Source: a virus. From it: 64,000 nt of DNA. The notes below the pieces were generated by a model, which saw only the letters and a program-made list of their open reading frames with translations, was not told the DNA's origin and did not search any database. The stretch spans positions 1-64,000 of the IMG/VR virus record IMGVR_UViG_3300027806_000001. The stretch is one strand, 5' to 3'. Each line of letters starts with the position of its first letter. Positions within the stretch are counted from its first letter, which is position 1. The position numbers were made by a program, and so were the translations under genes. Shown here piece after piece: positions 9,664 through 36,510 of the stretch.

Positions 9664-10815
9664 TCAGTATCCGGCGTGCTTGTGCTTCTTGGACGAGGTG
9701 GACAGGACCGCCGCGGTCACCCCGGTCAGGCTCGGGACGGCGCACTTGCCCGCCTTGGCCGAGCCGCCGAACGTGCCCAATTGTAGCGGCTGCGTGTCGA
9801 CGGTGGTCAGTACCAGCAGGCGTACGTCGGCCGGGAGGACGTCCGGCAGGACCTTCAGGGCGGCGGATGCCTCCCCCTTCACGGCGGCCTTGACGATGAT
9901 CAGGGAATTCCCCTGGGCGTACTCCGAGCCGAACCTCAGCAGGTTGCCGGACCGGTAGGCGGCCGGGACCAGCTCGGAGACGTACTGCTGCTTGTCGTGC
10001 AGGACCTGGATCGTGGAGAAGACAGGGGTGCCCTGGGGCAGGACCTGGCCGCGCGCCAGCGGCAGGGAATACGAGGACGGCCCCACGTGGACCGACTTGT
10101 CCGTGTAGACGGTGGCGACGGCCCGGTCGACCACTACCAGCTCCACGGTCTCGTCCTGCAAGGTGACCGGGGTGCCGGAGGCGCCTCCCAGGATACGCAT
10201 CGTGTCCAGCCAGGTGGCGCCGTAGGTGTACATGCGCCAGATCGCGTCGAACGGCACCTTGCGGTAGATCCTGTCGGCGAGCTGCAGGTTCAGGACGTAG
10301 CCGAGCCGTGAGGTCACGAAGCCGGACTCGCGGAGGACCTTCCTGGCGTGGAAGACCGCGGTCTGGCCGTCGACGTAGGTCAGAGGGGTCCTGAAGACGA
10401 TCTTGCCAGGCAGGACCTTGTAGTCGATGCCCTCGCAAAGGATCCTGGTCGGCTTGACCGGGTCGTCGTAGAGGAACGCCACGGAGATGATCGTCGGATC
10501 GCAGTAGTACTCGCCCTCGTTGGAGGAGTCCTCGCCGTACATGTAGCTGGTGCCGTAGCGGCTGGCGAGGTCTCCGTACTCGAACTTCGCCCGGTTGTTG
10601 GAGGCGAAGACGAACCTCTCCCAGGCGGTCGTGCGGCCGGCCGGCACCTCCTTGGCGGAGACCGAGGAGACCAGTTCGTCGGCGGAGATCTCGGACTGGC
10701 CGTGGACGGACAGCACGCCGCGGAGGAGCTGCCGCAGCAGGGCCGCCGAGCGGAACACCGTGGTCCAGAAGGAGCCGATCAGCGAGAGGAGGGTGCGTGG
10801 GAGGATCTGGTTCAC
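9664..10815 (-). CDS. baseplate-region structural protein (383 aa)
   Basis: The N-terminus MNQILPRTLLSLIGSFWTTV is hydrophobic and looks like a packing helix rather than a secretion signal. The middle has many aromatic residues (SRYGTSYMYGEDSSNEGEYY). The C-terminus is basic (SSKKHKHAGY). The start overlaps the end of the J-like gene by 4 bases, so the two are translationally coupled. In contractile tails the gene after J often encodes an I-like or wedge partner. Sequence similarity to that family is not evident, so this is contextual inference. Confidence 0.45.
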   Translation of the reverse strand: MNQILPRTLLSLIGSFWTTVFRSAALLRQLLRGVLSVHGQSEISADELVSSVSAKEVPAGRTTAWERFVFASNNRAKFEYGDLASRYGTSYMYGEDSSNEGEYYCDPTIISVAFLYDDPVKPTRILCEGIDYKVLPGKIVFRTPLTYVDGQTAVFHARKVLRESGFVTSRLGYVLNLQLADRIYRKVPFDAIWRMYTYGATWLDTMRILGGASGTPVTLQDETVELVVVDRAVATVYTDKSVHVGPSSYSLPLARGQVLPQGTPVFSTIQVLHDKQQYVSELVPAAYRSGNLLRFGSEYAQGNSLIIVKAAVKGEASAALKVLPDVLPADVRLLVLTTVDTQPLQLGTFGGSAKAGKCAVPSLTGVTAAVLSTSSKKHKHAGY

Positions 10816-12494
10816 GGGCAGTCGAGGACGCTGATGTCGACCATGGAGGTCTCGAGGAAGAACGCGCAGGTGTTGGCCGTGACGCCCTTGGCCGGGTTGT
10901 CGGGGGCCTTGAGCGCGTCGGAGGAGTAGACGACGCTCTTGGTGAGGTCGGGGTTGATGACCACGCCGTACATGTGGATGGGCAGGTCGACGCTGTAGCC
11001 GTCAGGGATGTTCTGGTAGGCGACGTGGACCAGCGCCGAGCCGAACACCGGTCCTCCCACGGGCGCCGAGTTGAACTTGGACACCAGGGCGGACTTCAGG
11101 GCGGCCAGGTCGGGGTCCTGGGCCCCGGAGGGCTTGATCAGGCGCAGCTGCAGGGAGCAGAGGACCGGGACCGGCGCCCGGACCAGCATGTCGGCGGTGA
11201 GGCTGCGCTCCGCGGCCGAGTCGACGTAGGCCTGGATCTCCCGGATGTTGGGCATCTTCAGGTAGTCGACGTAGAACTGCAGCAGTCCGGCGACGTTCAG
11301 CACGCCCACGGGCGGAGCCGACGTGTCGGAGGTCCAGGTCGACATCGCGCTGTTTCCCGCCTCGGTGCCCGACTCCTTGATGTTCGCGTAGGGCACCAGG
11401 AACCGGAAGGTCGCGCGCTGGTAGGCGGTGAACGGAGGAGGATTGCCTCCCACCTCGTGCATGGTGTTGTTCTCCATGGTCCGGGCGTCGGACACGATGG
11501 CGAACGAGGTCAGCTGCACCTGGGGGTTGGACCGGACGGCCTCGATCAGGTAGAGCCCGGCGGCGCGGTCGGAGCCCATCGAGATCTCGACGGTGCCGAG
11601 CCTGGTGGCCGTGTCGTAGGAGACGAGGACGGCCGGCAGGCGCTCGGAGAGCCTGGAGGGGTAGCTGGCCGACTTGACGTGCAGGTCGACGCGGTTGCCG
11701 GTGTGGACTCCGTCGACCAGGTCCCTGGACATCTCGGGATCCAGGAAGCCGACCACGCCGACGTCCTTGATGCCCGGGAACTGGGTCTTGAGCTTGGCCC
11801 GGATGTGCTCCCGGCCTGACAGCGCCTTGCCGACCACGCCGTCCTTGGCCTTGGCCAGCAGGACCGTGTTGTCGTCGGCGTCGGCTCCGCCCGTGAAGTC
11901 GGAGTCGGCATTGACGGTGACCTGGCCGGGGATGGTCGGAGCCACCGCGGTCGCCTTGGTCGAGGCGCGGATGTTGCCGGCGGAGCCTGGCGAGAGCGCG
12001 GTCACGGGGATGACCGCGCTGAACAGGCTGCCGCTGGGCTCGAGGATCCTCTGGTTGGCCAGGCCGGTGTAGAGCGACTCGGCGACCAGCACGTAGGATC
12101 CGTCCGGGGAGTACCGCACCCCTCCCAGGGTGAAGACCACCGAGGGAGGGATGCTGGCGGTCGCGGAGGAGGACATGAAGATCCGCAGGAGGCCCGACGC
12201 GGTCGAGCCCTCGGACCTGGTGACGTTGTAGTTGGACAGCACCCGCTCGAGCTGGACCGGGTCGACCGCGGACGGATCCTTGGAGATCTCGGACAGCGAG
12301 CTGGACACCAGGGCCAGGTCGATCTGCTCCTGGATCCGGGTCTCGAGGTGGGCGTAGATGCGCACGACCAGGTCGCGCAGGGCGGTGCCCGGGGACAGGT
12401 CCAGGGTCGGATAGGCAGCCTGCACGAAGGCCACGATCTGCTCCTCCTTGGAGTAGACCGTCGATGCGGACTGCGATGCCAGCGGGGTTTCCAT
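10812..12494 (-). CDS. baseplate wedge protein, J-like (T4 gp6 / Mu-P2 J family)
   Basis: This 560-residue protein has the typical baseplate J layout. A helical N-terminus (KEEQIVAFVQAAYPTLDLSP, then GTALRDLVVRIYAHLETRIQ) is followed by beta-rich segments. The family signature FTGGADADDNTVLLAKAKDG lies near residues 200-220. The next segment (REHIRAKLKTQFPGIKDVGV) fits the J fold. It is preceded directly by a gp25/W-like gene, the usual order in contractile tails. In such phages J proteins dimerise to form the wedge ring that transmits the contraction signal. The family call is fairly secure. Confidence 0.75.
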   Translation of the reverse strand: METPLASQSASTVYSKEEQIVAFVQAAYPTLDLSPGTALRDLVVRIYAHLETRIQEQIDLALVSSSLSEISKDPSAVDPVQLERVLSNYNVTRSEGSTASGLLRIFMSSSATASIPPSVVFTLGGVRYSPDGSYVLVAESLYTGLANQRILEPSGSLFSAVIPVTALSPGSAGNIRASTKATAVAPTIPGQVTVNADSDFTGGADADDNTVLLAKAKDGVVGKALSGREHIRAKLKTQFPGIKDVGVVGFLDPEMSRDLVDGVHTGNRVDLHVKSASYPSRLSERLPAVLVSYDTATRLGTVEISMGSDRAAGLYLIEAVRSNPQVQLTSFAIVSDARTMENNTMHEVGGNPPPFTAYQRATFRFLVPYANIKESGTEAGNSAMSTWTSDTSAPPVGVLNVAGLLQFYVDYLKMPNIREIQAYVDSAAERSLTADMLVRAPVPVLCSLQLRLIKPSGAQDPDLAALKSALVSKFNSAPVGGPVFGSALVHVAYQNIPDGYSVDLPIHMYGVVINPDLTKSVVYSSDALKAPDNPAKGVTANTCAFFLETSMVDISVLDCP

Positions 12495-14121: not shown

Positions 14122-15762
14122 TCAGGGGGAATATAGGCCGGTTGAAAAGTCGTACTTATAGTCGAACAGCGTCTGGAACGGAGCGCTGCCGGCCCCGTCG
14201 CCCAGGTCGTCGAACAGCTTGACGTCCGCGTCGTTCATGACGTGCCGCATGCGGAGGATCGTGTTGACGACGGCGCTCTCGGCCGAGAAGTTGTAGGTCA
14301 CGCTCTCCACGATCCCGACGCAGGCGTTGGAGGAGTTGAGGCCCGAGATCTTGTTCGCCGGGAATGTGTACTTCAGTCGCATGCCGGGGGCGAAGTCCAG
14401 GGCGAATCCGAAGATCACGTCCTGGGTCTTCGAGGAGTAGACGGTGTTGAAGTAGGCCTGCTTGGCCAGGGCGTCGCCCAGGGGCTTGACCGAGGCCAGG
14501 TTGGACGCCAGGGCGGCCGAATTTGAGGTCGGAGGCTGGGAGATGGGGAAGAGGCCCTGCCTGGCGTCGAATTCAAAGCCCCCGAAGCCGGGCAGCATGG
14601 TGTTGTACAGATAGGGCGGCGTTGGTATCACAAGCCACCCGCCGTAGGCTTCCTCGTCGCCAGCTGGCACCTTCAGGTTGTACTGTCCTACGAAGCGGGT
14701 CTCTATCTTCGTAGGTTCCTGGGGCGTGTTCGCGACCGACACCCTGCCGGACCCTCCGTACATGATGGTCCCGATCGGAAGCCTGACGGGGTTGGGCGAC
14801 GCGGCCCCCAGGTCGAACGCCGTTGCGTCTATCGTCATGTCGACCTCGCCGACGGGCCTGTAGGGCATCAACTCCGCAATGCTTGCTGAGGAGTTGAGGG
14901 GAGGACGGGGAGACAGGACGACTCCGAACGGAGAAAAGAGCATCAGCAGCTTCTCAAAGGCTGTGGCTCCGCCTTGGCCTGCCGAGATCAAGCTGACGAA
15001 CTGATCGTGCATTTGCGTCAAGACGCCTGCCACTCCGAACGCCGGCTTTACGGAATCCAGCAGCTTCAGGTTTTCCGAACCGATCCGCTCAAGGCCGGAT
15101 TCAACCCTGTCGTTGTTCGAGTCGACGCTCTGACCTCCGAAGAAGTTCGCCAGAGGCGACGTCGCCGCAGTGATCATCGCCGGCTGCAGAATGTCAGTCC
15201 ACCAGTTCGAGCTCAGGTACTCGTCCGTACGGACGATCTTTCCTTCGTTGGGCTCCCTGTAGAGTGCAAACCCGGTCCCCTCGACGTTTCTCTTGACCCT
15301 GGTGGTGAACCAGTCGGAAGGCGTCGACCGGTCGAAGTCACCCGAGCCGAAGGCCGTGATGTCCAGGTCGCTGAGTCTGCCGACGAGGGAGATGACCGTG
15401 CTGGATCCTCCGGTGCTGACGCTGACGGAGGCGCTCTGGATGTAGCCGTCGAACAAAAGCTCCCGGTAGGCGGGAGCCGACGGCTTCAGCTTTATGCCCT
15501 GGGGGTGCGGGTCTCCGGCCTGGCCGATCACGTAGAGCCGGGCCCTTTTCCGGCCCTGCAGGTCTTCCGGCGTCAACAGCACCTCGTTGCCGCTCAGGTC
15601 CGCGGTGACGCCCGACGGTATCTTCACCGTGGCGGAGGGGATCTGGTTCAGCACGTACTCGGCCATGGCTGCGACGACCGGAATCTTCTTGTCGCCCAGC
15701 TCCAGCACCACCTGCAGCTGGTGGATGGTCGCGTTTCTGGGGATGTAGGAGGGGGCCGACAT
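14122..15762 (-). CDS. putative baseplate/tail hub protein (546 aa)
   Basis: The start is ATG 15762 (MSAPSYIPRNATIHQLQVVL), overlapping the upstream stop by one base as TGATG. Open frame continues further upstream, but that is the shadow of the 245-residue gene. The segment FDGYIQSASVSVSTGGSS followed by STVISLVGRLSDLDI resembles the beta-rich hub domain of late-control D / gp27-type proteins. A hub role is inferred from that and from its position after the tape measure and before wedge genes. Codon use in the middle (around 14560-15320) looks less GC-biased than in neighbouring genes. Confidence 0.45.
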   Translation of the reverse strand: MSAPSYIPRNATIHQLQVVLELGDKKIPVVAAMAEYVLNQIPSATVKIPSGVTADLSGNEVLLTPEDLQGRKRARLYVIGQAGDPHPQGIKLKPSAPAYRELLFDGYIQSASVSVSTGGSSTVISLVGRLSDLDITAFGSGDFDRSTPSDWFTTRVKRNVEGTGFALYREPNEGKIVRTDEYLSSNWWTDILQPAMITAATSPLANFFGGQSVDSNNDRVESGLERIGSENLKLLDSVKPAFGVAGVLTQMHDQFVSLISAGQGGATAFEKLLMLFSPFGVVLSPRPPLNSSASIAELMPYRPVGEVDMTIDATAFDLGAASPNPVRLPIGTIMYGGSGRVSVANTPQEPTKIETRFVGQYNLKVPAGDEEAYGGWLVIPTPPYLYNTMLPGFGGFEFDARQGLFPISQPPTSNSAALASNLASVKPLGDALAKQAYFNTVYSSKTQDVIFGFALDFAPGMRLKYTFPANKISGLNSSNACVGIVESVTYNFSAESAVVNTILRMRHVMNDADVKLFDDLGDGAGSAPFQTLFDYKYDFSTGLYSP

Positions 15763-16499
15763 CAGAAGGAGTCCACCGAGAGGATGAATGCCGCGACCGC
15801 GTCCTCGGCGATGTCGCCGGCGACGGCGTCCAGGTACTCCTGGGCGGGCTGCATGCGCAGCAGGAAGTCCTTGTTGGCCTGCACCGCGGCAAGGATGCCC
15901 GAGAAGTCGCCGGAGTACGGGATGCGCAGCTCGGCCGACCACGAGACCGTCGACACGGAGGACGAGGCCACGATGCTGCGGCCCGAGCCGGGGACCGGCG
16001 TGGCCGGAAGGGGCGTCGAGGTGGAGAACGGCGATCCGACCGCGACTCCGTCCACCCTGAGCTGCAGGTTGGGGCTGGTGCCCGAGATGGAGATGCGCCA
16101 GCTGGACCTGTCGGGATCGACCGAGCCGCCCAGCACCAGCCTGACGTTCAGGCCGGAGACGGCGCCCTCGACGTCGACCAGGCCTTCGGGCTCGTCGAAG
16201 ATGGGCGCCAGGGAATCCAGCGCCCCGAGGCCCGACCTCCAGGAGATCCTGTCGGAGAACCGGCTCGAGCGCAGGATGTAGCCCAGGTGCCGGACCCTGC
16301 GCGCCACCTGGCGGGAGTCGGCCGAGTCCAGGCCGAGGATCGCCGCGGCGCGGAGGTAGGTCTCCAGCTTGTCGGAGGGGTAGGAGCCCTGCGATACGGG
16401 CGGGATGCCGGCGATGTCCGCCAGGCCTTGCCTGCCGTGGAGCAGCTTGGCGAACGGACGGTCGACCGGAACCGGATTGGCCGAAGAGTAGGTGCTCAT
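15762..16499 (-). CDS. tail/baseplate structural protein (245 aa)
   Basis: The start ATG 16499 (MSTYSSANPVPVDRPFAKLL) overlaps the upstream stop by 4 bases. The first 110 residues are mixed helix (KLETYLRAAAILGLDSADSR). The rest is beta-rich (LNVRLVLGGSVDPDRSSWRI), ending with a helix that contains YLDAVAGDIAEDAVAAFILS. It lies between the 172-residue tail protein and the hub candidate. No family is recognised. A hub, tail-completion or wedge accessory role is likely from context. Confidence 0.45.
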   Translation of the reverse strand: MSTYSSANPVPVDRPFAKLLHGRQGLADIAGIPPVSQGSYPSDKLETYLRAAAILGLDSADSRQVARRVRHLGYILRSSRFSDRISWRSGLGALDSLAPIFDEPEGLVDVEGAVSGLNVRLVLGGSVDPDRSSWRISISGTSPNLQLRVDGVAVGSPFSTSTPLPATPVPGSGRSIVASSSVSTVSWSAELRIPYSGDFSGILAAVQANKDFLLRMQPAQEYLDAVAGDIAEDAVAAFILSVDSF

Positions 16500-17016: not shown

Positions 17017-19764
17017 TCAGTTTCCGTTCGCCTTCGCGAGGGCAGCCTCTACGGTCTTGTTCAGCTTCTCGATGCTTGCATTCATCTTCCTGACCTCCTC
17101 GAGCAGCTCCTGGTTGACCACGGCAGAGCCGGTGCCGGTCGCCGCGCCCGCGGCCGTCGGGTTGGGAGTGCTCTGGGCGCCGCCTCCGGCCGCAGCGCCT
17201 GCCGCAGCGCCCACCACGGGCGTGGAGGCGGAGGTTCCGGCGTTCGTTCCTGGAGCCGCCGCGCCTGACGAGGTTCCGGTCGCGTTGGGGGTGTTCGCCG
17301 GATTGGGCGACGTGGACGAGGGAGTCTGCTGCGCGCCCAGCTTGCTTTTGGCGGCCTCGACCTTCGCCAGGGCGTTGTCGATTATCGCCAGTTCCCTGTC
17401 GTCCGCGGTCGCCGCCTTGTCGCTCTCAAGCTGCTTCTGAGTCTGGTCCAGCAAGCCGCTCTGCTCTTCCGGCGACAGGCCCTGCAGGAGCTTGACCATG
17501 TCCTCCAGGTTCATCTCCGTACCGCCCATGGCCCTGATCTTTTCGGCCAGGTTGCCCTTGGGGGCCAGCTTCGTGAAGACGTCCTTCATGCGCTCCAGGC
17601 CGGCTACATGAAGTCTTGCGTCCTGCTCCGGGACGAACACGGCGCGAACATCGTCGCCTGCCACCTTTATCTTTTTGTTTATGTCGAAGAAGACTCCGAG
17701 GGCAGCGCTCCTGGAGGTGTCTCCCAAGGCGCCTTGAAGCTGCGTCAGCTGGCTTTGGTCCAGTTTCAACAGCTGAGAGACGAACTCCTCGTCGGTCTTC
17801 GCGTTCTTCAGGGCGTCGAACTGGGAGCCGGCCAGTCCTCCGACCGCCGACCTGACGTCGGCGAGACCCGCCCCGCTCTTGCCCATGTACCGGTCGATGA
17901 CCCTGGTCACGTCCGCGCGGGCGCTTGCCCGGGAGGCCTCGCCGAAGACCTGAGGATTGGCCTCAAATCCCATCGCGGCGTTGCTGGAGCCCATGTAGTC
18001 CGACATCATGGCCTGGTTGACGCCGTGCTGCGCCAGGAAGTCCTGCACGTCCTGCTGACCCTTGGTCCCGTTCTTGAGACCCTGCACGAGCTCGGCGTAT
18101 CCGGGCTGCTGCTCGAGCTGCTTGGCCGACAGCTCCCTGGTCGCCTTGAGCAGGTTGCCGAGGCCCATTCCCGAGGACGTGTTCATGTAGACCTGGGAGG
18201 TGTCGACGGCCTGCGCCAGGGCCGCGCCCGGATCCATGGAGATGCCCATGGTCCTCATCCCATGCACCATCGCGCTGGCGGACGTCATGATCTCCACGCC
18301 TGCGCGGCCGCCCAGCCCTATGCCTTTGGCCATGTCGGTGGCGGCCATGATCATGCCCATGGACTGCTTCGAGTCCAGCCCTATCAGGCCTCCGATGGAG
18401 ATGGCCTCGGCGATCGGCTGGAACATTTCCCTGTTGGCGCGCCGGTTGGCCTCGTCGCGGAAGAACCGATCGCTCTGGCTCGCGTTGGTCGGATCGGCCC
18501 GCAGGGCGCGCTCGGCCTCGCCGACCGCCGATCCCAGCTGGCGGCCGAAGTCGTTGCCGTAGACCTGCTTCATCGAGGCCACGGTCTCGGCGATGGTCAT
18601 GTTGACCCGCTTGCTGAGGTCGGAGATGCCCTTGAAGTTCTCGAGCTGCTTGGCGATCGTGTCCTCGAGCTCCTTGACCTGGTTCGTGTCCAGGTTGCCG
18701 AAGGTGTCGACCCCTCCGGTCGTGAGCATGCCCTGCCTGGCCAGCTCGCGGGTCAGCGTCATGCCGCGCACCATGTCCAGGCCCTGGATGTCGCCCTTCA
18801 CCATCCGGTCGGCCAGGCCCATGGCGACGCTTTCGGCCGCGAAGCCCTTGCCTCCGGAGAATCCGGCCATGTTGAGGCCCCCCAGCATCGCCAGGGACTG
18901 GGAGGCCGCGGGCGCGAACAGACGCGGGTCGCTGTCGGCGCCGGTGGCGTTCAGGGCGACCTCCAGCAGACCTCCGACCACCGGGTTGTCCACCGAAATG
19001 CCTGCGCCCATCAGCATCGGAGCCACGGTGGTGGCGAACGCGTTCATCCCGGAGGCGTTGTTCGCGGCCCGGATCGCCTTGTCGACCTCGGCCTGGTTCT
19101 GCTTCATGAACGCGTCGGCCGCGGCCGAGTCTCCGGTCCTGCCGAGCTTGATCGCCTGCTGCAGCACGGGATCGTCCATGTTGACGCCGGAGATGGCGCT
19201 CATGGTGTCGAAGGCGCCCTTGAACCTTGCGTCCTGCCGCAGGGTGTCGGCGTTGGCCAGGCCCTGGAGCATGCGCAGGGACTCGGCGCTGTCGCCGGCG
19301 GTCAGCTCCATGAGCGTCGGCATCGGCGCGTTGCTGAAGTTGGCCTGGTACTGCATGGCGGCCTGGTTGAAGGCCTGGGCCTGCTGGATGTTCACGAAGT
19401 CCGACGGCAGGCTCTGATACGGGGTCATTCCGACCCCCATCTGGCCCATCATCCGGGAGACCATGAAGTTGCCGACGTCCTGGTTCATGCCGATCGGCAT
19501 GGTGCCCATCATGTTCGTGACGGCGCCGCTGAGCCCGGGCATGAGGTTCTTGATGGCCGGATTTTGCGCCATCGCCCCCAGCATGTTCACGATCTGGGCG
19601 GCGCTGTCACCGCCGACCGCCCCCGCCAGGCCCGCGATCTGCCCGAACATGCTCGGGTTCTGAGGCACGTAGGGCGAGAAGTAGCTCCCCTGGTTCAGGC
19701 CGTACCGCTGCATGGCCGCATCGGCCTGGCTGCGCATGGAGAAGTCTGGAGGGAAGGAAGACAT
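17017..19764 (-). CDS. tape measure protein
   Basis: At 915 residues this is a long, Ala/Met/Gly-rich helical protein immediately downstream of the frameshifted chaperone pair, the canonical tape measure position. Most of it is helical (for example EVDKAIRAANNASGMNAFA). There are hydrophobic Gly-rich stretches (FGQIAGLAGAVGGDSAAQIV). Near the C-terminus an Ala/Pro/Gly/Thr linker of about 80 residues precedes a final coiled coil (LLEEVRKMNASIEKLNKTVE). Tape measure proteins set tail length and can assist DNA entry. I saw no lytic transglycosylase or peptidase motif. Confidence 0.75.
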   Translation of the reverse strand: MSSFPPDFSMRSQADAAMQRYGLNQGSYFSPYVPQNPSMFGQIAGLAGAVGGDSAAQIVNMLGAMAQNPAIKNLMPGLSGAVTNMMGTMPIGMNQDVGNFMVSRMMGQMGVGMTPYQSLPSDFVNIQQAQAFNQAAMQYQANFSNAPMPTLMELTAGDSAESLRMLQGLANADTLRQDARFKGAFDTMSAISGVNMDDPVLQQAIKLGRTGDSAAADAFMKQNQAEVDKAIRAANNASGMNAFATTVAPMLMGAGISVDNPVVGGLLEVALNATGADSDPRLFAPAASQSLAMLGGLNMAGFSGGKGFAAESVAMGLADRMVKGDIQGLDMVRGMTLTRELARQGMLTTGGVDTFGNLDTNQVKELEDTIAKQLENFKGISDLSKRVNMTIAETVASMKQVYGNDFGRQLGSAVGEAERALRADPTNASQSDRFFRDEANRRANREMFQPIAEAISIGGLIGLDSKQSMGMIMAATDMAKGIGLGGRAGVEIMTSASAMVHGMRTMGISMDPGAALAQAVDTSQVYMNTSSGMGLGNLLKATRELSAKQLEQQPGYAELVQGLKNGTKGQQDVQDFLAQHGVNQAMMSDYMGSSNAAMGFEANPQVFGEASRASARADVTRVIDRYMGKSGAGLADVRSAVGGLAGSQFDALKNAKTDEEFVSQLLKLDQSQLTQLQGALGDTSRSAALGVFFDINKKIKVAGDDVRAVFVPEQDARLHVAGLERMKDVFTKLAPKGNLAEKIRAMGGTEMNLEDMVKLLQGLSPEEQSGLLDQTQKQLESDKAATADDRELAIIDNALAKVEAAKSKLGAQQTPSSTSPNPANTPNATGTSSGAAAPGTNAGTSASTPVVGAAAGAAAGGGAQSTPNPTAAGAATGTGSAVVNQELLEEVRKMNASIEKLNKTVEAALAKANGN

Positions 19765-19779
19765 GGATTTTCCGCAATT

Positions 19780-20918
19780 TTACCCGAACAGGGCCTTCCA
19801 CTCCTCGACGAGGGCTTGGTCCGACTGCAGCCTGGAGACGGGCTCCTCCGGCTGCCGCATGTCCATCCTCGCGACGTAGACCTGGGTGGCGTTGTTGAAG
19901 GCGGTCTCGACGTCCCGGTAGATGCCCGCCGCGACCTGGGCCCGGGTGTTGTCCAGGTAGGCCTCGGCGACCGCCCTGTTGCGCAGCTCGAGCCTGTACG
20001 CGATCCTGACGTGCTCGGCAGCGATGCCGAGCCTGGACTTCACGTCATGCGGCCTGGAGAACAGCTGCCGCTCGTACGCATCGGTCAGGATGAGGGACCA
20101 GCGCCCCCATTTGTAAAAAAATCAGGGTTGGCCGCCTCGCTCTGCATCTTGGCCATCTCGGAGTCGAACCGCTGGTACAGGAAGAACAGCATGTTGTACA
20201 GGGGGGCCGAGATGTCCGAGAACTTCTCGACGGCGGCCCACAGCACCCTCTGGCCGGGAACGGCCGGCAGGACGCTCTCGCGGAGCTGCATGCTGCCGTC
20301 CTTCTCCTTGACGTAGTAGGTGTCGCGCTTGGACTGGATGTCGTACATCGACAGCACCGAGTCCCAGCCCTGGCCGCGCATGGTCACGCCTTCCTTGGAG
20401 TGGAACTCCAGGCCGGTCAGCGAGCAGGCCATGCAGAAGCGCAGGTGGGCGCCGGCCACGGCCGTCATGCCGGCGTACGGCACGCGGCCGCTCTGGATGA
20501 CGATCGCCTCGGCGACGGCGTCCAGCTCCGCCATGTTCAGGGACTTGAAGGTCGCCTTGACCGAGCCTCCGAAGAGGTCGAAGCGCTTCGTGTAGGGGTC
20601 GCCCGAGAGGATGGCGCGCAGGAAGTTCTGGCGGTCCTCGTCGCTGACCTGGATCTGCGGCATCGAGGTCGTGGCGCCCAGGTTGTCCTTCAGGGCCTCC
20701 TGCACCTGCCTGAGGTTCTCCACGACGGCCTTGGCGGTGTCCGGCTTGGGCTCCTTGGCGGCGTCCGGCTTGGCCCCGGGCCTGAGGTCCGGAGGCAGGT
20801 CGTCGTCCGGGACCGGGGTCGCGGATTCAGGGGCCGGGGGATCCACCTCGACGAACTTCCCGGACTCGGAGAGCCGGTACGTCCTGCCTGGGGTCAACGG
20901 AGTGATGTCCTCGCTCAT
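19780..20918 (-). CDS. tail assembly chaperone GT-type fusion made by -1 ribosomal frameshift (about 379 aa)
   Basis: The first 268 codons are those of the 20085-20918 gene, up to the codons GAT TTT TTT. A -1 slip on T TTT TTT (20121-20115) continues as TAC AAA TGG GGG into an open frame that ends at 19780. This adds 111 residues (YKWGRWSLILTDAYERQLFS at the junction). The downstream frame has only a weak internal GTG (20043) and no good ribosome-binding site, but it is open and protein-like right up to the slip site. The pair sits directly before the tape measure, exactly where lambda G/GT-type chaperones occur. The long form would recruit tube subunits. Confidence 0.8.
20085..20918 (-). CDS. 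tail assembly chaperone, G-type short form (277 aa)
   Basis: The start is ATG 20918 (MSEDITPLTPGRTYRLSESG), overlapping the spike gene stop as ATGA. A Pro/Lys/Ala-rich linker covers residues 20-75. Then comes a helical domain (FLRAILSGDPYTKRFDLFGG; LNMAELDAVAEAIVIQSGR). Without frameshifting, translation ends FFTNGGAGPSS after the run of seven T. The short form is expected to be the majority product. In well-studied phages these chaperones bind the tape measure and are absent from virions; that is family knowledge applied by position and slip site. Confidence 0.75.
   Translation of the reverse strand: MSEDITPLTPGRTYRLSESGKFVEVDPPAPESATPVPDDDLPPDLRPGAKPDAAKEPKPDTAKAVVENLRQVQEALKDNLGATTSMPQIQVSDEDRQNFLRAILSGDPYTKRFDLFGGSVKATFKSLNMAELDAVAEAIVIQSGRVPYAGMTAVAGAHLRFCMACSLTGLEFHSKEGVTMRGQGWDSVLSMYDIQSKRDTYYVKEKDGSMQLRESVLPAVPGQRVLWAAVEKFSDISAPLYNMLFFLYQRFDSEMAKMQSEAANPDFFTNGGAGPSS
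20115..20121 (-). promoter_or_regulatory. -1 frameshift slippery heptamer T TTT TTT
   Basis: Read on the minus strand in the zero frame, the codons are GAT TTT TTT ACA. This gives a perfect X XXY YYZ heptamer made of T only. It is an unusual homopolymer for such GC-rich coding DNA. The -1 frame downstream is open for 111 more residues. A short potential GGG/CCC pairing lies just downstream but is weak. Confidence 0.8.
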
Positions 20919-23659
20919 GTCGTGCTCCTCACCTGGTTTCTGACCGGGATGGTGTACGCGCCCTCGAAGCTCGACGGCGCGCCGATCGGGGCCAGCGCCT
21001 GGCCGAACCCCTCGGACTTCAATCTTAGCTTCTCGTCGACCAGCCTGCCTTCCCCGGCTTGCAGCTGGGCGAACTTTCCCGCCAGGGCACGCGCGCCGGG
21101 CCAGAAGTAGGTCGCCGTCTCGCTGACGCCCGGGGGAGCGGCCCCGGCAGGCATGGATGGGTCGACCCCGCGCAGGATCATGGGGGTGCCGGCGCCCTGC
21201 AGCCGGTACTGCTGCTGCCACTCGCTCTCGAGCAGGGCGTACTGCGTCGAGTCCGGGATGCCGCGGTCAGGCGAGTCCGGGTAGCAGAAGGTCAGGTTGG
21301 CCAGGGACGACCTGGCCGTCTTGAGGACCGACCTGTCGAAGTCCTTGCCGGACGCGGCCGCAGCCTTGGTGACCTGCCCCAGCGCGGTCTGCTGCTGCGT
21401 GATGCCGGTCGTGACCGCCTCGAGCTGGCTGCCGATGCCTGCGGCGTCCAGGACCCCCACCGTCTGCTCCGGGCCGCTGAAGCCCGAGACCGCCGAGACG
21501 GACGTGGAGAAGATGGCGTCGCCCTTGACCCTCAGGGAGATGGTCGACGAGTTGGCCCCCGACGCCAGGATGGACTGGCCCTCGAAGAAGAACGACCCGC
21601 GGCTCTTCATGTAGACGCCGCCCTGGGTCAGGGACATCGACGTCGAGAGCTCGGGCCTGGCCCGGTCGCTGATGAAGGTCGTGGTGGCCGCCTCGAAGAC
21701 CGCCTGGGTGCCTGCGGCCGTGAGGGTTCCCGCGCCGGAGTCCAGGCGGACCGTGGCCGCGTCGGAGGCGTTGCCGGCGTAGACCTCGCGGCCCACCGCG
21801 TAGAAGCCCGACTCCCTGGCCTTGATCCAGACGCCTCCGTAGGCGTTGGCGTTGCTCCTGGGGGCCTTGAACCGCGGCGAGCCCGACTCGTTCTGGCCGG
21901 ACAGGATGGACCCCTGGGCCTTGGTCTCGAGCAGGATGCCGCCTGCGCCGTCGTTGCCGGACAGCACGGAGACGTTCCGGTCGGCATGGACGCGCACGTC
22001 GCCCTGGGTCGCCGCCAGCTCGACGTCGACTCCTCCGACGCACGACACGGACGCCCCGGCCACGACGGCCAGGTTGCGGCCGGGCCGCAGGGTGATGTCC
22101 CCGGGGCACGAGATGTCGATCGAGCCGGCGCGCATGCTGATGCAGCCGCCGTAGCCGTCCTGCAGGTGGACGGAGCCGTCGTCGTTCAACAGGACCATGG
22201 CCCGGCTGGCGTAGTACCTGGCGTCCTGGCCCTCGGAGATGCGCAGCAGGGCCACCTTGGGCAGCCTGGCGTGCATCCGCTGTTCGGAGACGTTCTCGGA
22301 GGCCGGCAGCATGCCGGAGGCGTCGATGCCGGGCTTCAGGCCGGCCAGGTCGACCTCCTCCATGCCCCAGACGGTCCAGTCGTCCTTGCGCACCTTGAAG
22401 TTGACCGTGGCGCGGTGGTTCCTGAAGGCGACCGAGTCGGACGAACTCGCCGCGTAGGCCAGGGCGGCGCCGTCCAGGTTCTCCTCGGCGCCTTCGATCT
22501 CGTAATCTGCCAGTTCTGGCACTATGGCGGCCCGGTCGGCCTCCAAGGTGACGGACTTGGCACCTCTGCTGTCGTCAGGACGCTTGAGCTCCCTGGGGAC
22601 CGGGATCAGGCAGTCCTTGACCAGGGCGATCGACTTGGCCGACACCACGGTGTAGGCGCCGGTGGCGTCCAGATGCTGGCGGAACACGCCGGCCTCGTCG
22701 GGCTCCTCGGCCTTGTCCGCAGTGCGCACCGCGGTCAGGGAGGGCACGGCCACGTAGGTGGAGCTCAGGTTGGGCAGGAAGCCGTCGAAGTCCAGCCGGC
22801 GCCACCAGCCCTGCTGCTCCGGCTCCTGCAGGGCGTAGACACCGGTGTCGTCCTTTTCCTCCGAGTCCGGCCCGCGGGGCGTGCCCGCCTTCAGCGGCAG
22901 GGCTCCGTACTGGTACGGGGCGCCCAGGGACTCGAGGACGTAGGGATTGCGCCGGCGGACCTCGGTGTAGTCGCCGCCGTCGGCGAACATGAGGGTCTCG
23001 GAGCCTGCCGTGGTCTGCTCGAAGTTGTAGGAGTTCAGCCGGACCAGGTCGTCGATGTAGTGGCACTCGATGGAGCAGCCGTAGCCCGAGACCAGGGAGG
23101 CGTGCAGGGCTCCCACCACCAGGCCGCACCCCAGCATGTTCACGGCGTGGTGGTCGCCAGCGTAGGCGTCCAGCATGTGGCCGTTGTTGAAGTTGACCAG
23201 CGGGGAGTTCAGCTGGCCCTGGTCCGAGATGGCGTCCTTGTAGGATCCCGCGGGCGATCCGGGGAACAGCTCGGGGATGCTGGGCAGCACGGTGGGTCCC
23301 ATGGGGTCCGGCAGCCGGCCCAGGATGACCGCCCGGCCAGGCCCCAGCTCGGGGGTGTGCATCACCATGACGGTGCTGCCGACGCCGTACATGGGGATGG
23401 ACCCCACTCCGCAGCCCAGGCCGATGCCCATCGGGCTCAGCGGCACGGCGAGCATGGGGGGCATGCCCTGGACCGACGTCAGGTAGCAGCCCAGCTGCTG
23501 GTTGATCTCCAGGACCTTGGCCACGAAGACCATGCTCGTGACCCGGCTGTTGTCGTGCAGCTCGGACCGCCGCTGGAGGTAGTCGTAGTGCCTGTCCAGG
23601 CCCAGCGGATGGCCTGCCGAGGACGATCGTACCGTGGAGTTGGGATTGGGGATGGCCAT
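20915..23659 (-). CDS. baseplate spike-like protein: N-terminal OB-type domain plus beta-helix (914 aa)
   Basis: Residues about 40-120 (MVFVAKVLEINQQLGCYLTS, GVGSTVMVMHTPELGPGRAV) look like the OB-fold of gpV/gp5-type spike proteins. Residues about 510-760 form short repeating beta segments (ISMRAGSIDISCPGDITLRP; VELAATQGDVRVHADRNVSV), as in a spike beta-helix. The protein is long for this family and has a 350-residue middle part of unknown fold. It lies between the tail tube and the chaperone genes, an unusual place for a spike. No lysozyme motif is visible. The assignment rests on pattern, not alignment. Confidence 0.5.
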   Translation of the reverse strand: MAIPNPNSTVRSSSAGHPLGLDRHYDYLQRRSELHDNSRVTSMVFVAKVLEINQQLGCYLTSVQGMPPMLAVPLSPMGIGLGCGVGSIPMYGVGSTVMVMHTPELGPGRAVILGRLPDPMGPTVLPSIPELFPGSPAGSYKDAISDQGQLNSPLVNFNNGHMLDAYAGDHHAVNMLGCGLVVGALHASLVSGYGCSIECHYIDDLVRLNSYNFEQTTAGSETLMFADGGDYTEVRRRNPYVLESLGAPYQYGALPLKAGTPRGPDSEEKDDTGVYALQEPEQQGWWRRLDFDGFLPNLSSTYVAVPSLTAVRTADKAEEPDEAGVFRQHLDATGAYTVVSAKSIALVKDCLIPVPRELKRPDDSRGAKSVTLEADRAAIVPELADYEIEGAEENLDGAALAYAASSSDSVAFRNHRATVNFKVRKDDWTVWGMEEVDLAGLKPGIDASGMLPASENVSEQRMHARLPKVALLRISEGQDARYYASRAMVLLNDDGSVHLQDGYGGCISMRAGSIDISCPGDITLRPGRNLAVVAGASVSCVGGVDVELAATQGDVRVHADRNVSVLSGNDGAGGILLETKAQGSILSGQNESGSPRFKAPRSNANAYGGVWIKARESGFYAVGREVYAGNASDAATVRLDSGAGTLTAAGTQAVFEAATTTFISDRARPELSTSMSLTQGGVYMKSRGSFFFEGQSILASGANSSTISLRVKGDAIFSTSVSAVSGFSGPEQTVGVLDAAGIGSQLEAVTTGITQQQTALGQVTKAAAASGKDFDRSVLKTARSSLANLTFCYPDSPDRGIPDSTQYALLESEWQQQYRLQGAGTPMILRGVDPSMPAGAAPPGVSETATYFWPGARALAGKFAQLQAGEGRLVDEKLRLKSEGFGQALAPIGAPSSFEGAYTIPVRNQVRSTT

Positions 23660-23668
23660 AAGCAGACC

Positions 23669-23694
23669 GGGCTCCGGAGGTCAGTCCGGAGCCC
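23669..23694 (-). terminator. GC-rich hairpin after the tail-tube gene
   Basis: A perfect 10-base inverted repeat (GGGCTCCGGA / TCCGGAGCCC) with a 6-base loop fills the gap between the tail-tube and spike genes. There is no U-tract after it on the minus strand. It is more likely a partial terminator or mRNA-stabilising/processing hairpin that raises tube output over downstream genes. Confidence 0.55.
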
Positions 23695-23722
23695 AGTATA
23701 GTGACACGGAAGGAGGTGGGCC

Positions 23723-27718: not shown

Positions 27719-28057
27719 TTATAGCGCCGGAGGCCAGATCACCGCCTGAACGGCGTCGCAGGCCGCTGCGCGGGAGGATTCCTGCCCATCCCAGGTCACG
27801 GCCTCGACCTGCTGCTCGAGCAGATTGGACTGAGCGCGCACCTGGTCTATGTGGGCCTTCAGCGCAGCCGTCTCGGCCGGCGGCAGCAGGCCCAATGCGG
27901 CGTTCATCTGGCGGTACTCCGGAGCCGCGGCCAGGATGCGGCGCCGGGCCTCGGCCCGGATGGCCGCCAGCTGAAACTCCTTCACGCCGGCGAAATCCCG
28001 GTCGTCGACGATCTCGACGGTCCCGTCCAAGGCGTGGTTGATCTCTCGGAAGATCAT
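27719..28057 (-). CDS. fibre-associated small protein (tail fibre assembly type, 112 aa)
   Basis: The start ATG 28057 (MIFREINHALDGTVEIVDDR) overlaps the stop of the fibre-like gene as ATGA. The segment IRAEARRRILAAAPEYRQMN matches the R-R-I-L-A-x-x-P-x-(W/Y)-x-Q-x-N pattern common in small proteins encoded after tail fibres. The remainder is helix (ETAALKAHIDQVRAQSNLLE). It probably acts as a chaperone or cap for the 254-residue fibre-like product. That role is inferred from the pattern and the tight coupling. Confidence 0.5.
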   Translation of the reverse strand: MIFREINHALDGTVEIVDDRDFAGVKEFQLAAIRAEARRRILAAAPEYRQMNAALGLLPPAETAALKAHIDQVRAQSNLLEQQVEAVTWDGQESSRAAACDAVQAVIWPPAL

Positions 28058-28818
28058 AGGAAGCTCACGCAGATGCCTGGAATGCTGTTTCCGCCGGCCC
28101 GCATCCTGGGAGTCCCGATGGAGGTGGGCAGGGCGTAGCTGCCGGCGTCGACGTAAAGGGCCTGCAGCCCCTCGCCAAGCGAGTAGAAGTCCACCATGCC
28201 CAGCTTGCGCATGTTTCCGGTGGCGCTGGAGTAGCAGTGAACGCTGGGGGTGGCGCTGAAAACAGCGGCAAGCCAGTACCATCCGCGGTCAGGTAGGGTG
28301 TAGTTCAAGGTCACGTTCTGGTACGTAAACCCGCCTGTGAAGACCGCGGTGCTGGCGGTCTGGGCGAGCCTCGTGCCGGGGCCGTATGCTCCGTCGTTGG
28401 CATAGACGCCCAGCGTGAAGTTGCTGGCCGGATTCACCGCAGCCGTGACTATCTGGATCTTGTCGATCGTGCGTCCTATTTCCTCGACGTGAATAGGGAC
28501 CAGGTACACCCTGTTGGCGACCGCATTGGTGGTTCCGCCGGCAAGAATGTTGTTCTCATGGGTGTAGAAGACCGTCTTGCCGGTCAGGACAGTACCGTTC
28601 TGGTCGTAGGTGGCGTTGGTGTCGGTGATGATCTTCGGCCTGGTGCCGGACAGGCCGGAATGGGCCGACAGCAGGACCACCTGGCCGGACGAGTTCTTGG
28701 AGTACAGCCTGCGGTCGGCCAGGTTGACGGCCAGCTCGCCCTGCAGGACCTCGACCGGGTCGGGCACCAGGCCCGCCGTCGATGACTGCCTGAGGATGAC
28801 GCTGTTGAACTCGGGCAT
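28054..28818 (-). CDS. tail fibre-like protein (254 aa)
   Basis: The first 50 residues (MPEFNSVILRQSSTAGLVPD; GELAVNLADRRLYSKNSSGQ) match the attachment motif seen at the start of many tail fibre proteins. The motif is usually a K/R-x-S-x-x-G-x-x-P then GELAxNxxDGxLY. The rest forms a single beta-rich domain (FTYQNVTLNYTLPDRGWYWL) that may be the receptor-facing head. It is short for a fibre, so it is probably a short appendage. The 112-residue small protein follows with a 4-base overlap. Confidence 0.6.
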   Translation of the reverse strand: MPEFNSVILRQSSTAGLVPDPVEVLQGELAVNLADRRLYSKNSSGQVVLLSAHSGLSGTRPKIITDTNATYDQNGTVLTGKTVFYTHENNILAGGTTNAVANRVYLVPIHVEEIGRTIDKIQIVTAAVNPASNFTLGVYANDGAYGPGTRLAQTASTAVFTGGFTYQNVTLNYTLPDRGWYWLAAVFSATPSVHCYSSATGNMRKLGMVDFYSLGEGLQALYVDAGSYALPTSIGTPRMRAGGNSIPGICVSFL

Positions 28819-32301: not shown

Positions 32302-35300
32302 CTAGTACTTGAAGTAGAGGTCGCCGTCGGACCCCAGGCCGGCGCCGGGGGTGGTGGTGCCGCTGAAGACCTTTGGAATCCTGTTTCCGTTGTTGTTGAT
32401 ATTACCCGAGGCGCTGACCAGGTTCAAGTCGCCTGCCCCGGTCTCGATGACGCCGTTCGTCGTGTCGTGGTTCAACCGCATGAAGTGGTTGGCATTCGAG
32501 CTGCCCCGGCCGTAGAGGTAAAGCGTCGGGTCGGCGTGGTCGATCGTTGGAACACGGTTCGCGCCTCCTCGCTCGTTGTTCTGAACGATAACGAGCGCGC
32601 CACTGCTTCCTGCGTTCTGACTGCCAAGGAGCAGACCAATCGTCATGCACCCTTGACTGCTTGCCTCTTGATATGAGAGCGTGTACCAGTTCGCGCCGCC
32701 CAAAGCAAAGTCAATCGCGTTTCCCATTCTCCATGGTGTGTTACAAAGGAAGCCACCAGCGGTTGTGCTGCCATCGGAGTTCCTGCGCGTTCCGAGAGTG
32801 ACACCAGAACCCCAGGATGTACCGTCAACCGTCATGGCGAAGTCGGTCGATGCAGTCCCGTTCGTACCGATGCGCACCGTGCCGTTGGTCGAGTTGCTCA
32901 GAAACTCGCCGTTCCCCATCACGATCGCGCCGCTGCCCGCCGTGCCGACCGTGAGGGTTTCGGTCGCAGAGTCGTATGTCAGCCCCGCGTCGCCCGCGAA
33001 CGCACCGGCGTTGTTGAACTGGATCTGCCCGCTGCTGCCGCCAGGGCTGCCGCTGCCGCCGGAGACCGTGGCCCACTGCAAGGTGGCATCGTTTCCGGTC
33101 ACTGATGCGATCTGCAGCACCTGGTTGGCCGTGCCGACGGCAGCAGGCATGGTGTAGATGTTGCTGTTCGTGACCGAGGAGGGGGACCGCAGGGCGACGT
33201 AGGTCGAGGTGCTGCTACCGAGGCGGAGCTGGCCCTGGGAGCCGACCTGCAGGTGACTGCCATCGAAGGTGAACGCCGAGGACGCCGCCAGGGCGCCCGA
33301 GGAATTGTACTGGACCTGGTTGGTCGATCCGGCCACCAGGCCCACCGTGCCGCTGGCGTTGGGCAGGGTGATGGTGCGGTTGGCGCCAGGGTCGGCTGCC
33401 TGCAGCCTGGTGGTGAAGGAATTGGCCGTAGCTCCCTCGAACAGGATGCCGACGTCCAACGAGTCGGTTCCGTCCGTGCTGTAGGTGCCCAGGTAGAGGT
33501 TTCCACCGGTGACGCGAACCTGCCCAGCGCCATCCACAGCGTTGGTGACCTGCAGCTGAGCCATGGTTCCGCCCAGGCTGCCCAGCGAGGTGGTAGGGGC
33601 GATCGTCAGGTTTCCGCCCGGCGAGATCGTCAGGCTGTTTGTCGAGCCGCTGTTGGTGGTGATCGACGAAGTCGTGTTGCCCAGCCGGAGCGTCGGATTG
33701 CGCAGCGCCGCGGTGCCGGTCGTGGCCCCGAGGGTAAGGGCGGTGGCGGCTCCTCCGATGTTCAGATTGGTTACGAACGTGTTGAACAGGTTGCCAAGGC
33801 CGGACGTGACCGTGGTGGCAAGGGTGGCGGTGCCCAGGGAGTTGGCCCGGATCGTCAGCGTAGAGTCGCCGGAGGTCGTGCCGATGTTGACCGATGCCGC
33901 GGCTCCGCCCAGGTTGATGGTGGAGGCGCCGCCGGTGGCCATGTTCAGGGTGCCGGTGGTGATGCCGGTGAACAGGTTGACTATGCCGGTGGTGACGTTG
34001 ACGTCCAGGTTCGACGTGCCTGCGGCGATGCCGTTCAAGGTTACCGTGTTGCCGGTAATGTTCGTGCCCAGCCTGATGGTCGGGGCCGCGGCCGCGGCCG
34101 CGGCGATTCGCACGTCTACCGAGGTGGCAGCAAGATTGAAGTTCGACGAGGAGCTGGTGATGTCTCCGCCGTTGACCGCCAGGTCGCCCGCGACGGTCAG
34201 CTCGGACGTGCCGCTGTTGTAGGTCAGGCCGGAATGCCCTCCCAAAGCGCCGCCGTTGTTGAACTGCACCTGGGTCGTGGAGCCGCTGGCTGTGACGGCC
34301 AGGGTGCCGGCGGACAGCGACAGGTTGGATCCGACGGAGATCTCCTCCACCGAACCTGCGGCAGCCGTGGTCCGGCCAAGGATCCTCGCCGTGTTGATGT
34401 TCTGGAACTTGGCGAAGGTGACGGCCTGGTTGGCGATCGTAGTCGTGTTGGAATTGACGCTGGCGGTGACATCGCCGCTCAAGGCTGCCCGCTCGAACGA
34501 CACCTGGCCGGCGGTCACCCAGTTGGCCGAGACAGTGTTGGAGTTGCCAACCACCCGTTCGTTGGTCAAGGTGGCATCCGCGGTGCGAACCAGGTAGTCG
34601 ACCGTGGTGGGGGCGCCGCCGCCTCCGCCGGAGACCGTGGCCCACTGCAGGGTGGCGTCGTTGCCGGACACCGAGGCTATCTGCAGCACCTGGCCGTTGG
34701 AGCCCACCACATCCGGCAGCGTGTAGATGTTGCTGTTCGCAACGCTGGACGGCGAACGGAGCGCGACGAACGTGGCTCCGCTGCTGCCGAGGCGGAGCTG
34801 GCCCTGGGAGCCGACCTGGACATTGGAGCCGTCGAAGGTGAAGACCGAGGAGGCTGTCAGGGCGTTCGAGGAGTTGTACTGGACCTGGCCCGTCGAGCCG
34901 CTGGCCGTGACGGCCAGGGTGCCGGCGGACAAGGACAGGTTGGCTCCGGCCGACAGCTCCTCGACCACCCCGGCGCCTGCCGTGGTCCGGCCCAGGATCC
35001 TGGCCGTGGCAACGTTCTGGATCTTGGCGTAGGTGATCTGGCTGTCGCCGATGCCGGCGGTCGCGAGGGTGCCGAAGCCAAGGGTGGTGCCGCTGAGCCT
35101 GAGCACCTGGCCGTCGACCGTGGCCTGAATGTCGGCCGGATCTCCAGCAGTGGCTGCAGCGCGCCCGATGACCGAATTTGCAGCGCTGTCTCGGATCGCA
35201 GTATTGGTGACGGCATTGGCGGCAATTCCGGGATCGGGGTAGGTGCCGGTCAGAGAGCCGCCGGCCGCCCCGGTCGGCGTCCTGGAATTGGTGAGCCTGC

Positions 35301-36510
35301 TGTCGTTGCCCTCGCAGAAAGTTCCGGTCGTGGAGCCGAAGGATCCGGCCTGCAAGACGCCGCCGGTGCCGGTGATGATCGGCAGGCTGGCGGTCGAGCC
35401 GATGGCGCCGGCATTGGTGATGTTGCCGTGCGTGTGGCTGGATGCGGCAAGACCGGCCTCGGCCGCGGTCTGGTTCTTCCAGAGGCCGCTCGAAAGGTCG
35501 TAGGCCAGCAGGTCGTTGTCCGCCGGCGAAGCGCCGATCAGGACGTCGTGCAGCTCGTCCAGCTCCTGGCCGTTGATGACCTTGACGTAGGCTCGGCCAG
35601 CTGCGCCGTTGCTGGCGTCTTGCACCCAGCCGAGGAACACCAGGTGCGCGGGCTGGACCGGCTTCGTGGTCGTCCAGTTTCCGGCCGTCTGCGAAAGCCA
35701 CAGCGCGTTGCCGTTGACGAACGTGCCAGTGGGCAGGTTGCTCAGGCCGGTCAGCAGGCCCTGGGTGATGATGTAGCCGCTGACGGTGTTCGTGATCGTC
35801 TCGGCCGCCACGCCGATGGTGGTGGCTGCGGTCAGCTCGCTGTCCGCGTCCGCCAGCTCGACCGTCAGGTGGGTGCCCTGGCTGCCGACGATGTAGACGA
35901 CCTGGCCCTTGGTGATGGTGCCGGCGCTGGCCTTGCGCACGATCTTCATCAGGGCCTCGTTGGCCGGGCTCTGGTAGGTGCCGGTGACGACGTTGACGCC
36001 GGAGATCGTGCCGCCGGTCAGGGCGACGGCGTTGGCGTCCTGGGTGGCGACGGTGCCAAGGCCGAGGGTGGTCCTCTGGGCGACGTTGTCGAGGTCGTCC
36101 AGCAGGGCCTTGCCTGCCGCGGTGATGTCCCCGCCGAGCTTGCTGGTGCCGATCGCACCCGGGGCGACCGTCGGATTGGGGTAGTTTCCGCTGAGGTCGC
36201 CGCCGGCTGCGCCGCTAGGGGATCCGCCGGCGGTCGAGTTGACCCACTTCTGCAGGCTGGCGTTGTAGACCAGGGCCTGGCCGTCGGCCAGGGTGCCGAG
36301 GTTCAGCTGGACGTCCTTGAGGGAGGCCAGGAACGCTTCGGCGTCCATGTAGTCGAGGTCACGCCACGCCGTGATGCCGTCGCCGACCTTGAGCAGGTCG
36401 TTGGTCTCGTCGTAGACAGGCTCTCCCCGCCCGTACACCCGGTTGGTGGCGTACAGGTTGGCGTAGGTGTCCCTGCGGATTCGCAGGCGGGCCAGCAGGG
36501 TGGTCGGCAT
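32302..36510 (-). CDS. long tail fibre protein (1402 aa)
   Basis: The N-terminal domain (RIRRDTYANLYATNRVYGRG; VGDGITAWRDLDYM) is the virion-binding domain seen in many fibres. Next comes AAGGDLSGNYPNPTV. A long Thr/Ser/Gly-rich shaft contains repeats: ARILGRTTA plus LSLSAGTLAVTASGST occurs twice, and QVGSQGQLRLGSS with NDATLQWATVSGG occurs twice. The final 200 residues (TPWRMGNAIDFALGGANWYT) are less repetitive and coded with noticeably lower GC. They are probably the receptor-binding tip. No C-terminal autoprotease motif is evident. A receptor-binding role is inferred from the fibre family. Confidence 0.7.
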   Translation of the reverse strand: MPTTLLARLRIRRDTYANLYATNRVYGRGEPVYDETNDLLKVGDGITAWRDLDYMDAEAFLASLKDVQLNLGTLADGQALVYNASLQKWVNSTAGGSPSGAAGGDLSGNYPNPTVAPGAIGTSKLGGDITAAGKALLDDLDNVAQRTTLGLGTVATQDANAVALTGGTISGVNVVTGTYQSPANEALMKIVRKASAGTITKGQVVYIVGSQGTHLTVELADADSELTAATTIGVAAETITNTVSGYIITQGLLTGLSNLPTGTFVNGNALWLSQTAGNWTTTKPVQPAHLVFLGWVQDASNGAAGRAYVKVINGQELDELHDVLIGASPADNDLLAYDLSSGLWKNQTAAEAGLAASSHTHGNITNAGAIGSTASLPIITGTGGVLQAGSFGSTTGTFCEGNDSRLTNSRTPTGAAGGSLTGTYPDPGIAANAVTNTAIRDSAANSVIGRAAATAGDPADIQATVDGQVLRLSGTTLGFGTLATAGIGDSQITYAKIQNVATARILGRTTAGAGVVEELSAGANLSLSAGTLAVTASGSTGQVQYNSSNALTASSVFTFDGSNVQVGSQGQLRLGSSGATFVALRSPSSVANSNIYTLPDVVGSNGQVLQIASVSGNDATLQWATVSGGGGGAPTTVDYLVRTADATLTNERVVGNSNTVSANWVTAGQVSFERAALSGDVTASVNSNTTTIANQAVTFAKFQNINTARILGRTTAAAGSVEEISVGSNLSLSAGTLAVTASGSTTQVQFNNGGALGGHSGLTYNSGTSELTVAGDLAVNGGDITSSSSNFNLAATSVDVRIAAAAAAAPTIRLGTNITGNTVTLNGIAAGTSNLDVNVTTGIVNLFTGITTGTLNMATGGASTINLGGAAASVNIGTTSGDSTLTIRANSLGTATLATTVTSGLGNLFNTFVTNLNIGGAATALTLGATTGTAALRNPTLRLGNTTSSITTNSGSTNSLTISPGGNLTIAPTTSLGSLGGTMAQLQVTNAVDGAGQVRVTGGNLYLGTYSTDGTDSLDVGILFEGATANSFTTRLQAADPGANRTITLPNASGTVGLVAGSTNQVQYNSSGALAASSAFTFDGSHLQVGSQGQLRLGSSTSTYVALRSPSSVTNSNIYTMPAAVGTANQVLQIASVTGNDATLQWATVSGGSGSPGGSSGQIQFNNAGAFAGDAGLTYDSATETLTVGTAGSGAIVMGNGEFLSNSTNGTVRIGTNGTASTDFAMTVDGTSWGSGVTLGTRRNSDGSTTAGGFLCNTPWRMGNAIDFALGGANWYTLSYQEASSQGCMTIGLLLGSQNAGSSGALVIVQNNERGGANRVPTIDHADPTLYLYGRGSSNANHFMRLNHDTTNGVIETGAGDLNLVSASGNINNNGNRIPKVFSGTTTPGAGLGSDGDLYFKY
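33061..33318 (-). repeat. intragenic repeat, copy 2 of fibre shaft module
   Basis: This stretch of about 258 bases is a diverged direct repeat of 34629-34888. Both code for the VQYNSSxALxASSxFTFDGS to NDATLQWATVSGG module of the long fibre. Alignment by eye shows long identical blocks separated by mostly synonymous differences. Confidence 0.6.
34629..34888 (-). repeat. intragenic repeat, copy 1 of fibre shaft module
   Basis: This is the partner of 33061-33318 within the long-fibre gene. A second, shorter pair codes for ARILGRTTA plus LSLSAGTLAVTASGS and lies near 34880-35030 and 34270-34410. The repeats could allow shaft shortening or lengthening by recombination. Confidence 0.6.

Follow-up and report, generated by a model that had tools for sequence, protein, structure and literature searches.

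A candidate -1 ribosomal frameshift cassette of the tail assembly chaperone type in a lineage of uncultured tailed viruses

Introduction

The making of two tail assembly chaperones by a -1 frameshift is a device well known in phages. In lambda, G forms a coat on the tape measure protein, and contact with the tail tube subunit is made by the T part of GT (PMC5009743). Phage P2 uses TTTTTTG at the corresponding place (PMC3091744), and SPP1 is predicted to use UUUUUUC there (PMC6316719). Known tail assembly chaperones themselves have little sequence in common, and in E. coli A_AAA_AAG is more shift-prone than U_UUU_UUU (PMC5009743).

We analysed positions 1 to 64,000 of the 183,468-base virus record IMGVR_UViG_3300027806_000001 (the window, which means this whole stretch of DNA). 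On its minus strand lie two overlapping reading frames, named here E and E', which in our judgement probably form a ribosomal -1 frameshift cassette of the G/GT (P2 E/E+E') type making two tail assembly chaperones. The locus is similar to P2 E / E+E' (T_TTT_TTG), where the tail is contractile, the first ORF ends in a T-rich heptamer used for a -1 shift and the tape measure gene lies downstream of the chaperone pair. Unlike in P2, E has 277 amino acids instead of 91, the heptamer consists of seven T, a 914-aa spike-like gene is placed between the tube gene and E, and sequence similarity is undetectable. With lambda G / GT the locus shares the predicted common N-terminus of the two products and the place of the predicted -1 shift, which precedes the tape measure gene closely, whereas lambda has a G_GGA_AAG heptamer, a non-contractile tail and no sequence similarity to it. 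SPP1 17.5 / 17.5* likewise has a Phe-Phe heptamer, a -1 frame and then the tape measure gene. Unlike here, the last base of the predicted SPP1 site (U_UUU_UUC) is C, where four lineages have T, and SPP1 is a siphovirus without sequence similarity to the window.

Results

Organization of the E-E' locus

The features of the locus and its surroundings are listed in Table 1. The start of E overlaps the preceding gene by 4 nt, and its 3' end reads CCT GAT TTT TTT ACA AAT GGG GGC GCT GGT CCC TCA TCC TGA. An earlier note, made from the letters of the window, had pointed to the T TTT TTT heptamer in GAT TTT TTT ACA without naming the strand; the heptamer is present at that place on the minus strand. 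The note also described the -1 frame as open for 111 residues with no good start codon. This is correct: E' has 113 codons with the two Phe codons of the heptamer included, and its first ATG, GTG or TTG is a GTG at codon 27. E and E' overlap by 37 nt, and T_TTT_TTT is the sole X_XXY_YYZ heptamer inside the overlap. A TGA of the -1 frame abuts the T run, and therefore a shift into E' is confined to these 37 nt. The arrangement is that of a G/GT-type cassette, with two overlapping ORFs, of which the second is in the -1 frame without a start of its own, and with an in-phase slippery heptamer of the form X_XXY_YYZ within the overlap in all four lineages described below. The note placed the tape measure gene next, and a tape-measure-like ORF, named by its position and length, begins 15 nt beyond the E' stop codon.

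Table 1. Positions of the features discussed in the text (window coordinates unless stated otherwise)
Feature	Position	Strand	Remarks
Baseplate J / baseplate wedge protein	10812..12494	-	Baseplate_J 37.7 bits, cut-off 21.1; baseplate wedge PHROG
Tape-measure-like protein, 915 aa	17017..19764	-	Position and length; relatives 27-29% identical
E', -1 frame extension, 113 codons from heptamer	19780..20121	-	TAA stop at 19782-19780
Dual-coding overlap 3' of heptamer	20085..20114	-	Contains near-palindrome GGGGnCGnTGGTCCC
E, zero-frame ORF of 277 aa, tail assembly chaperone-like	20085..20918	-	ATG start, TGA stop
Slippery heptamer T_TTT_TTT (GAT TTT TTT)	20115..20121	-	Same sequence and phase in all four lineages
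-1 frame TGA directly 5' of TTT TTT	20122..20124	-	5' limit for shift
SD-like GCGAGG	20135..20140	-	Ends about 13 nt 5' of heptamer; possible weak stimulator
VgrG/gp5-like spike protein (DUF2345-like), 914 aa	20915..23659	-	Between tube and E; orthologues 46-49% identical
Tail-tube-like protein, 156 aa	23723..24193	-	Position; fold gave no confirmation
Tail-sheath-like protein, 937 aa	24207..27020	-	Position; weak similarity to phage structural protein
RNA polymerase beta-prime-like domain (RNA_pol_Rpb1_5)	53372-55231	-	75.5 bits
RNA polymerase beta-like domain (RNA_pol_Rpb2_6)	record 93414-94385	-	151.8 bits; 2040-aa open frame

Conservation of the heptamer in related lineages

Four proteins of the window, the tube-like and sheath-like ones, E and E', served as queries against IMG/VR, and each returned the same three other lineages. 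These are represented by contig 3300032233_002605 (L003), by four contigs that are identical across the region and count as one lineage (L004-L007), and by two contigs of one lineage with 3 nt of difference between them (L009 and L010). Contig L002 is also highly similar to the window and stops before E. Between lineages, E is 46-56% identical over its full length and E' 40-53%, and the loci of the relatives have a G+C content of 42-49% compared with 66% in the window.

Comparison with related genomes had been proposed as a check. In each of the three other lineages the two frames are intact and the heptamer is present in phase, as GAT TTT TTT CTA, AAT TTT TTT CCA and GAT TTT TTT CAA. This retention of both frames and the heptamer is what is expected of a G/GT-type cassette, and it extends over four lineages that share ancestry, are all uncultured and do not represent four independent origins. 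We looked in the three other lineages for a disrupted heptamer with both frames conserved and saw none.

Homopolymers are prone to sequencing error, and the window's own copy of the locus is covered by one record alone, so that an error of sequencing or assembly might have split one continuous gene. The relatives contradict this explanation, which is almost certainly wrong and was rejected: exactly seven T stand in the same frame relation in seven more contigs of three lineages, the zero-frame end of E is conserved and the overlap evolves as dual-coding sequence.

Evidence for translation of both frames

The best conserved part of E' in the four lineages is formed by its first residues, FFxxWGRW, which begin at the heptamer, and LLILDAY comes after this motif in three of the four. 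The -1 frame has no ATG, GTG or TTG before codon 27, 29, 30 and 78, respectively, in the four lineages. In principle, ribosomes could start inside the locus, or re-initiate once they have reached the stop codon of E, and so make E' as a protein of its own. Phages often have overlapping genes with coupled starts, and E itself overlaps the gene before it. However, no start codon lies ahead of the residues that are conserved best. We therefore rejected internal initiation, and a separate E' is very unlikely.

Codon composition agrees with translation in the -1 frame. E has a GC3 of 0.97, and E' read as the -1 frame has one of 0.96, compared with 0.66 and 0.41 when that stretch is read in either of the remaining frames. 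Identity between lineages at zero-frame wobble positions is 22-48% over the 27 codons that precede the heptamer and 62-100% over the eight codons that follow it. Such a jump in wobble identity inside the overlap is as expected with translation of both frames.

The DNA antisense to the tail genes also has long open frames, of 902 codons (17608-20316, plus strand) and 880 codons (21059-23701, plus strand). These are probably a by-product of the high G+C content.

Codon usage and rarity of the T run

The earlier note regarded the run of seven T as conspicuous in GC-rich coding DNA. The G+C content of the 64-kb window is 66.4%, and the heptamer is the only T7 on its two strands. Dinucleotide shuffles of the window contain 0.39 T7 on average, and 27% of them contain at least one, and thus the run by itself is not significant. 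The record as a whole has one further T7, which lies in a gap between two ORFs and on the strand opposite both. What is unusual is the place of the run in the codons. Among 34 genes of the window, a rough and provisional set, TTT accounts for 26 of 513 Phe codons, so that TTC is about 19 times commoner, and GAT for 97 of 869 Asp codons. Only one of the 23 Phe-Phe pairs is written TTT TTT, and this is the heptamer itself. By these figures, Asp-Phe-Phe would be written NNT TTT TTT in roughly 3 of 10,000 cases. In the AT-richer relatives, codon use alone gives the heptamer a probability of 0.17-0.39. Since it is not improbable there, the weight of the argument rests on the GC-rich window, on retention in all four lineages and on the dual-frame tests.

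Ribosomal or transcriptional slippage

The same run could be read by another mechanism, in which RNA polymerase adds one U at the T7 in some transcripts and normal translation of these gives the E-E' fusion. With E. coli RNA polymerase, slippage requires a run of seven T or more, and rescue by insertion was about 5% and 10% on poly(T7/8) (PMC6260861). The run here thus has the minimum reported length. The record contains RNA polymerase beta-prime-like and beta-like domains, and the virus probably encodes its own multi-subunit RNA polymerase; the tail genes may therefore be transcribed by an enzyme with slippage properties of its own. Retention of the last T, in spite of the strong preference of the window for TTC, would also suit a polymerase, and the junction peptide predicted for the two mechanisms is identical in four of four lineages. 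In contrast, each of the four lineages has exactly seven T and never more, which is just the lower limit. The run sits in the one phase of three that is suited to tandem tRNA slippage, and the same cassette of P2 functions with six T and a G (PMC3091744). Transcriptional slippage is a serious rival explanation, though unlikely to be the source of the fusion. We give slightly less credence still to the more specific proposal that the virus's own multi-subunit polymerase slips on T7, instead of or besides the ribosome, to make the chaperone fusion. We favour the ribosome, since the heptamer is of a form suited to tandem slippage with re-pairing on identical UUU codons, and since P2 and, as predicted, SPP1 use similar sites at the same gene position. 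The insertion of one base at T7 would yield the same peptide, DFFYKWGRW, and therefore detection of this peptide would show the fusion and not ribosomal slippage.

Candidate stimulatory elements

Three of the four lineages have an SD-like sequence (AAGGAG, AAGGAG and, in the window, GCGAGG) that ends 13-14 nt 5' of the heptamer and has a strength reached by 2.5-5.5% of random positions. The element of L010 is weak, at the 13% level, and unremarkable. On the 3' side, the conserved GGGGnCGnTGGTCCC might form a short stem starting 6 nt after the heptamer, and RNAalifold also selects this stem. It can form in three of the four lineages and is broken in L010, and no covariation was seen in it among the four. 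Folding of the stem region in single sequences gives no or slight gain over shuffles (z of 0.78 to -1.67). Conservation of GGGGnCGnTGGTCCC could be explained by dual coding alone. In P2-like phages a downstream hairpin was likewise not found (PMC3091744).

Neighbouring tail genes and identity of the products

All four lineages have their genes arranged as sheath-like, tube-like, spike-like, E, E', tape-measure-like. The pair therefore lies between the tube and tape measure genes, as in G/GT-type cassettes, with these neighbours named by position and length and with the spike-like gene intervening. The matches to Baseplate J and to a baseplate wedge PHROG indicate that the tail module is contractile. 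In relative L016, the spike-like protein has a DUF2345 match (5.2e-6) that narrowly misses the Pfam cut-off. For the tape-measure-like protein, family searches gave no match. For the tube-like protein, the AlphaFold model (pLDDT 32) was too poor for a fold search, and a profile search of its alignment against the PDB matched laccases (E 0.002) over a short stretch; we treated this match as chance.

The sheath-like protein has weak similarity to a structural protein of Salmonella phage Arash. Arash and the Vibrio phages D181 and D69 are the isolated phages with a distant sheath relative, and their gene order beyond the sheath differs from that of the window. In Arash (L036), two stretches of about 1 kb each shortly downstream of the PAAR spike tip gene (15558-16461 and 17347-18342) carry no annotated genes. 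The DNA of L002 is 95-96% identical to the window where aligned, and its tube-like protein is 100% identical. Within the sheath-like protein of L002 (4563-7412), alignment columns of about 61-540 are only 37-73% identical to the window, and form a sharply bounded variable region.

Three further genes of the window, all on the minus strand, have recognizable relatives. A 1402-aa protein (32302-36510) has an Mtd_N domain and DUF5907 repeats, and is likely a receptor-binding or adhesin protein. A 254-aa protein (28054-28818) resembles long tail fiber distal subunits in their N-terminal part (PHROG 1699, 4.1e-9). A 450-aa protein (44516-45868) has a match to PHROG 2774 (4.6e-12) and a weaker one to a PHROG of head maturation proteases, and is possibly a capsid protease.

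E and E' have no match in Pfam, PHROGs, PDB sequences and known tail chaperone families, and nothing was found for them in isolated phages and genome contigs. The AlphaFold model of E, with a mean pLDDT of 48, was too poor for a fold search. The chaperone role of the two proteins is accordingly inferred from synteny and position. The proposal of the earlier note that the heptamer produces G/GT tail chaperones is supported by the heptamer and frames kept in relatives, and the name G/GT applies by gene order and not by similarity. It is also conceivable that the frameshift is real and that its products serve otherwise, for example as a structural baseplate protein in two lengths. The lack of sequence or fold matches to chaperones and the spike-like gene directly upstream speak for this. 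However, E and E' stand right next to the tape-measure-like gene, on its 5' side, and have a conserved two-product layout, as in the cassettes of lambda and P2, and a non-chaperone function is rather improbable.

Discussion

Our data establish the cassette anatomy of E and E', the conservation of two frames, the dual-coding overlap and the retention of the heptamer and its phase. From these features we infer that slippage occurs and that it is ribosomal, as well as its efficiency and the chaperone role of the products. In the proposed mechanism, most ribosomes would translate E and terminate at 20087-20085. In a minority, tRNA-Phe in the P and A sites on U_UUU_UUU would slip one base back and re-pair with identical UUU codons, and translation would go on in the -1 frame. 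The resulting fusion protein would have some 380 residues and about 42 kDa, and its junction would read ...NPDFF-YKWGRWSL.... If the products act as in lambda, E would form a coat on the tape measure protein, tube subunits would be brought in by the E' part, and the ratio of the short to the long product would govern tail assembly.

What appears to be new, as judged from the sequences compared, is a probable frameshift pair in a lineage of bacterial viruses whose proteins resemble no known chaperones. With an all-T heptamer and its own RNA polymerase subunits, the virus would offer a clean natural case for separating ribosomal from transcriptional slippage. If the polymerase did slip, this would be an unusual means of setting the chaperone ratio in a tailed phage. 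A ribosomal cassette would extend the tail-assembly device to divergent large contractile-tailed viruses. In these viruses the chaperone and the tape measure are unrecognizable by sequence, and position together with the frameshift signal may be a way to annotate them.
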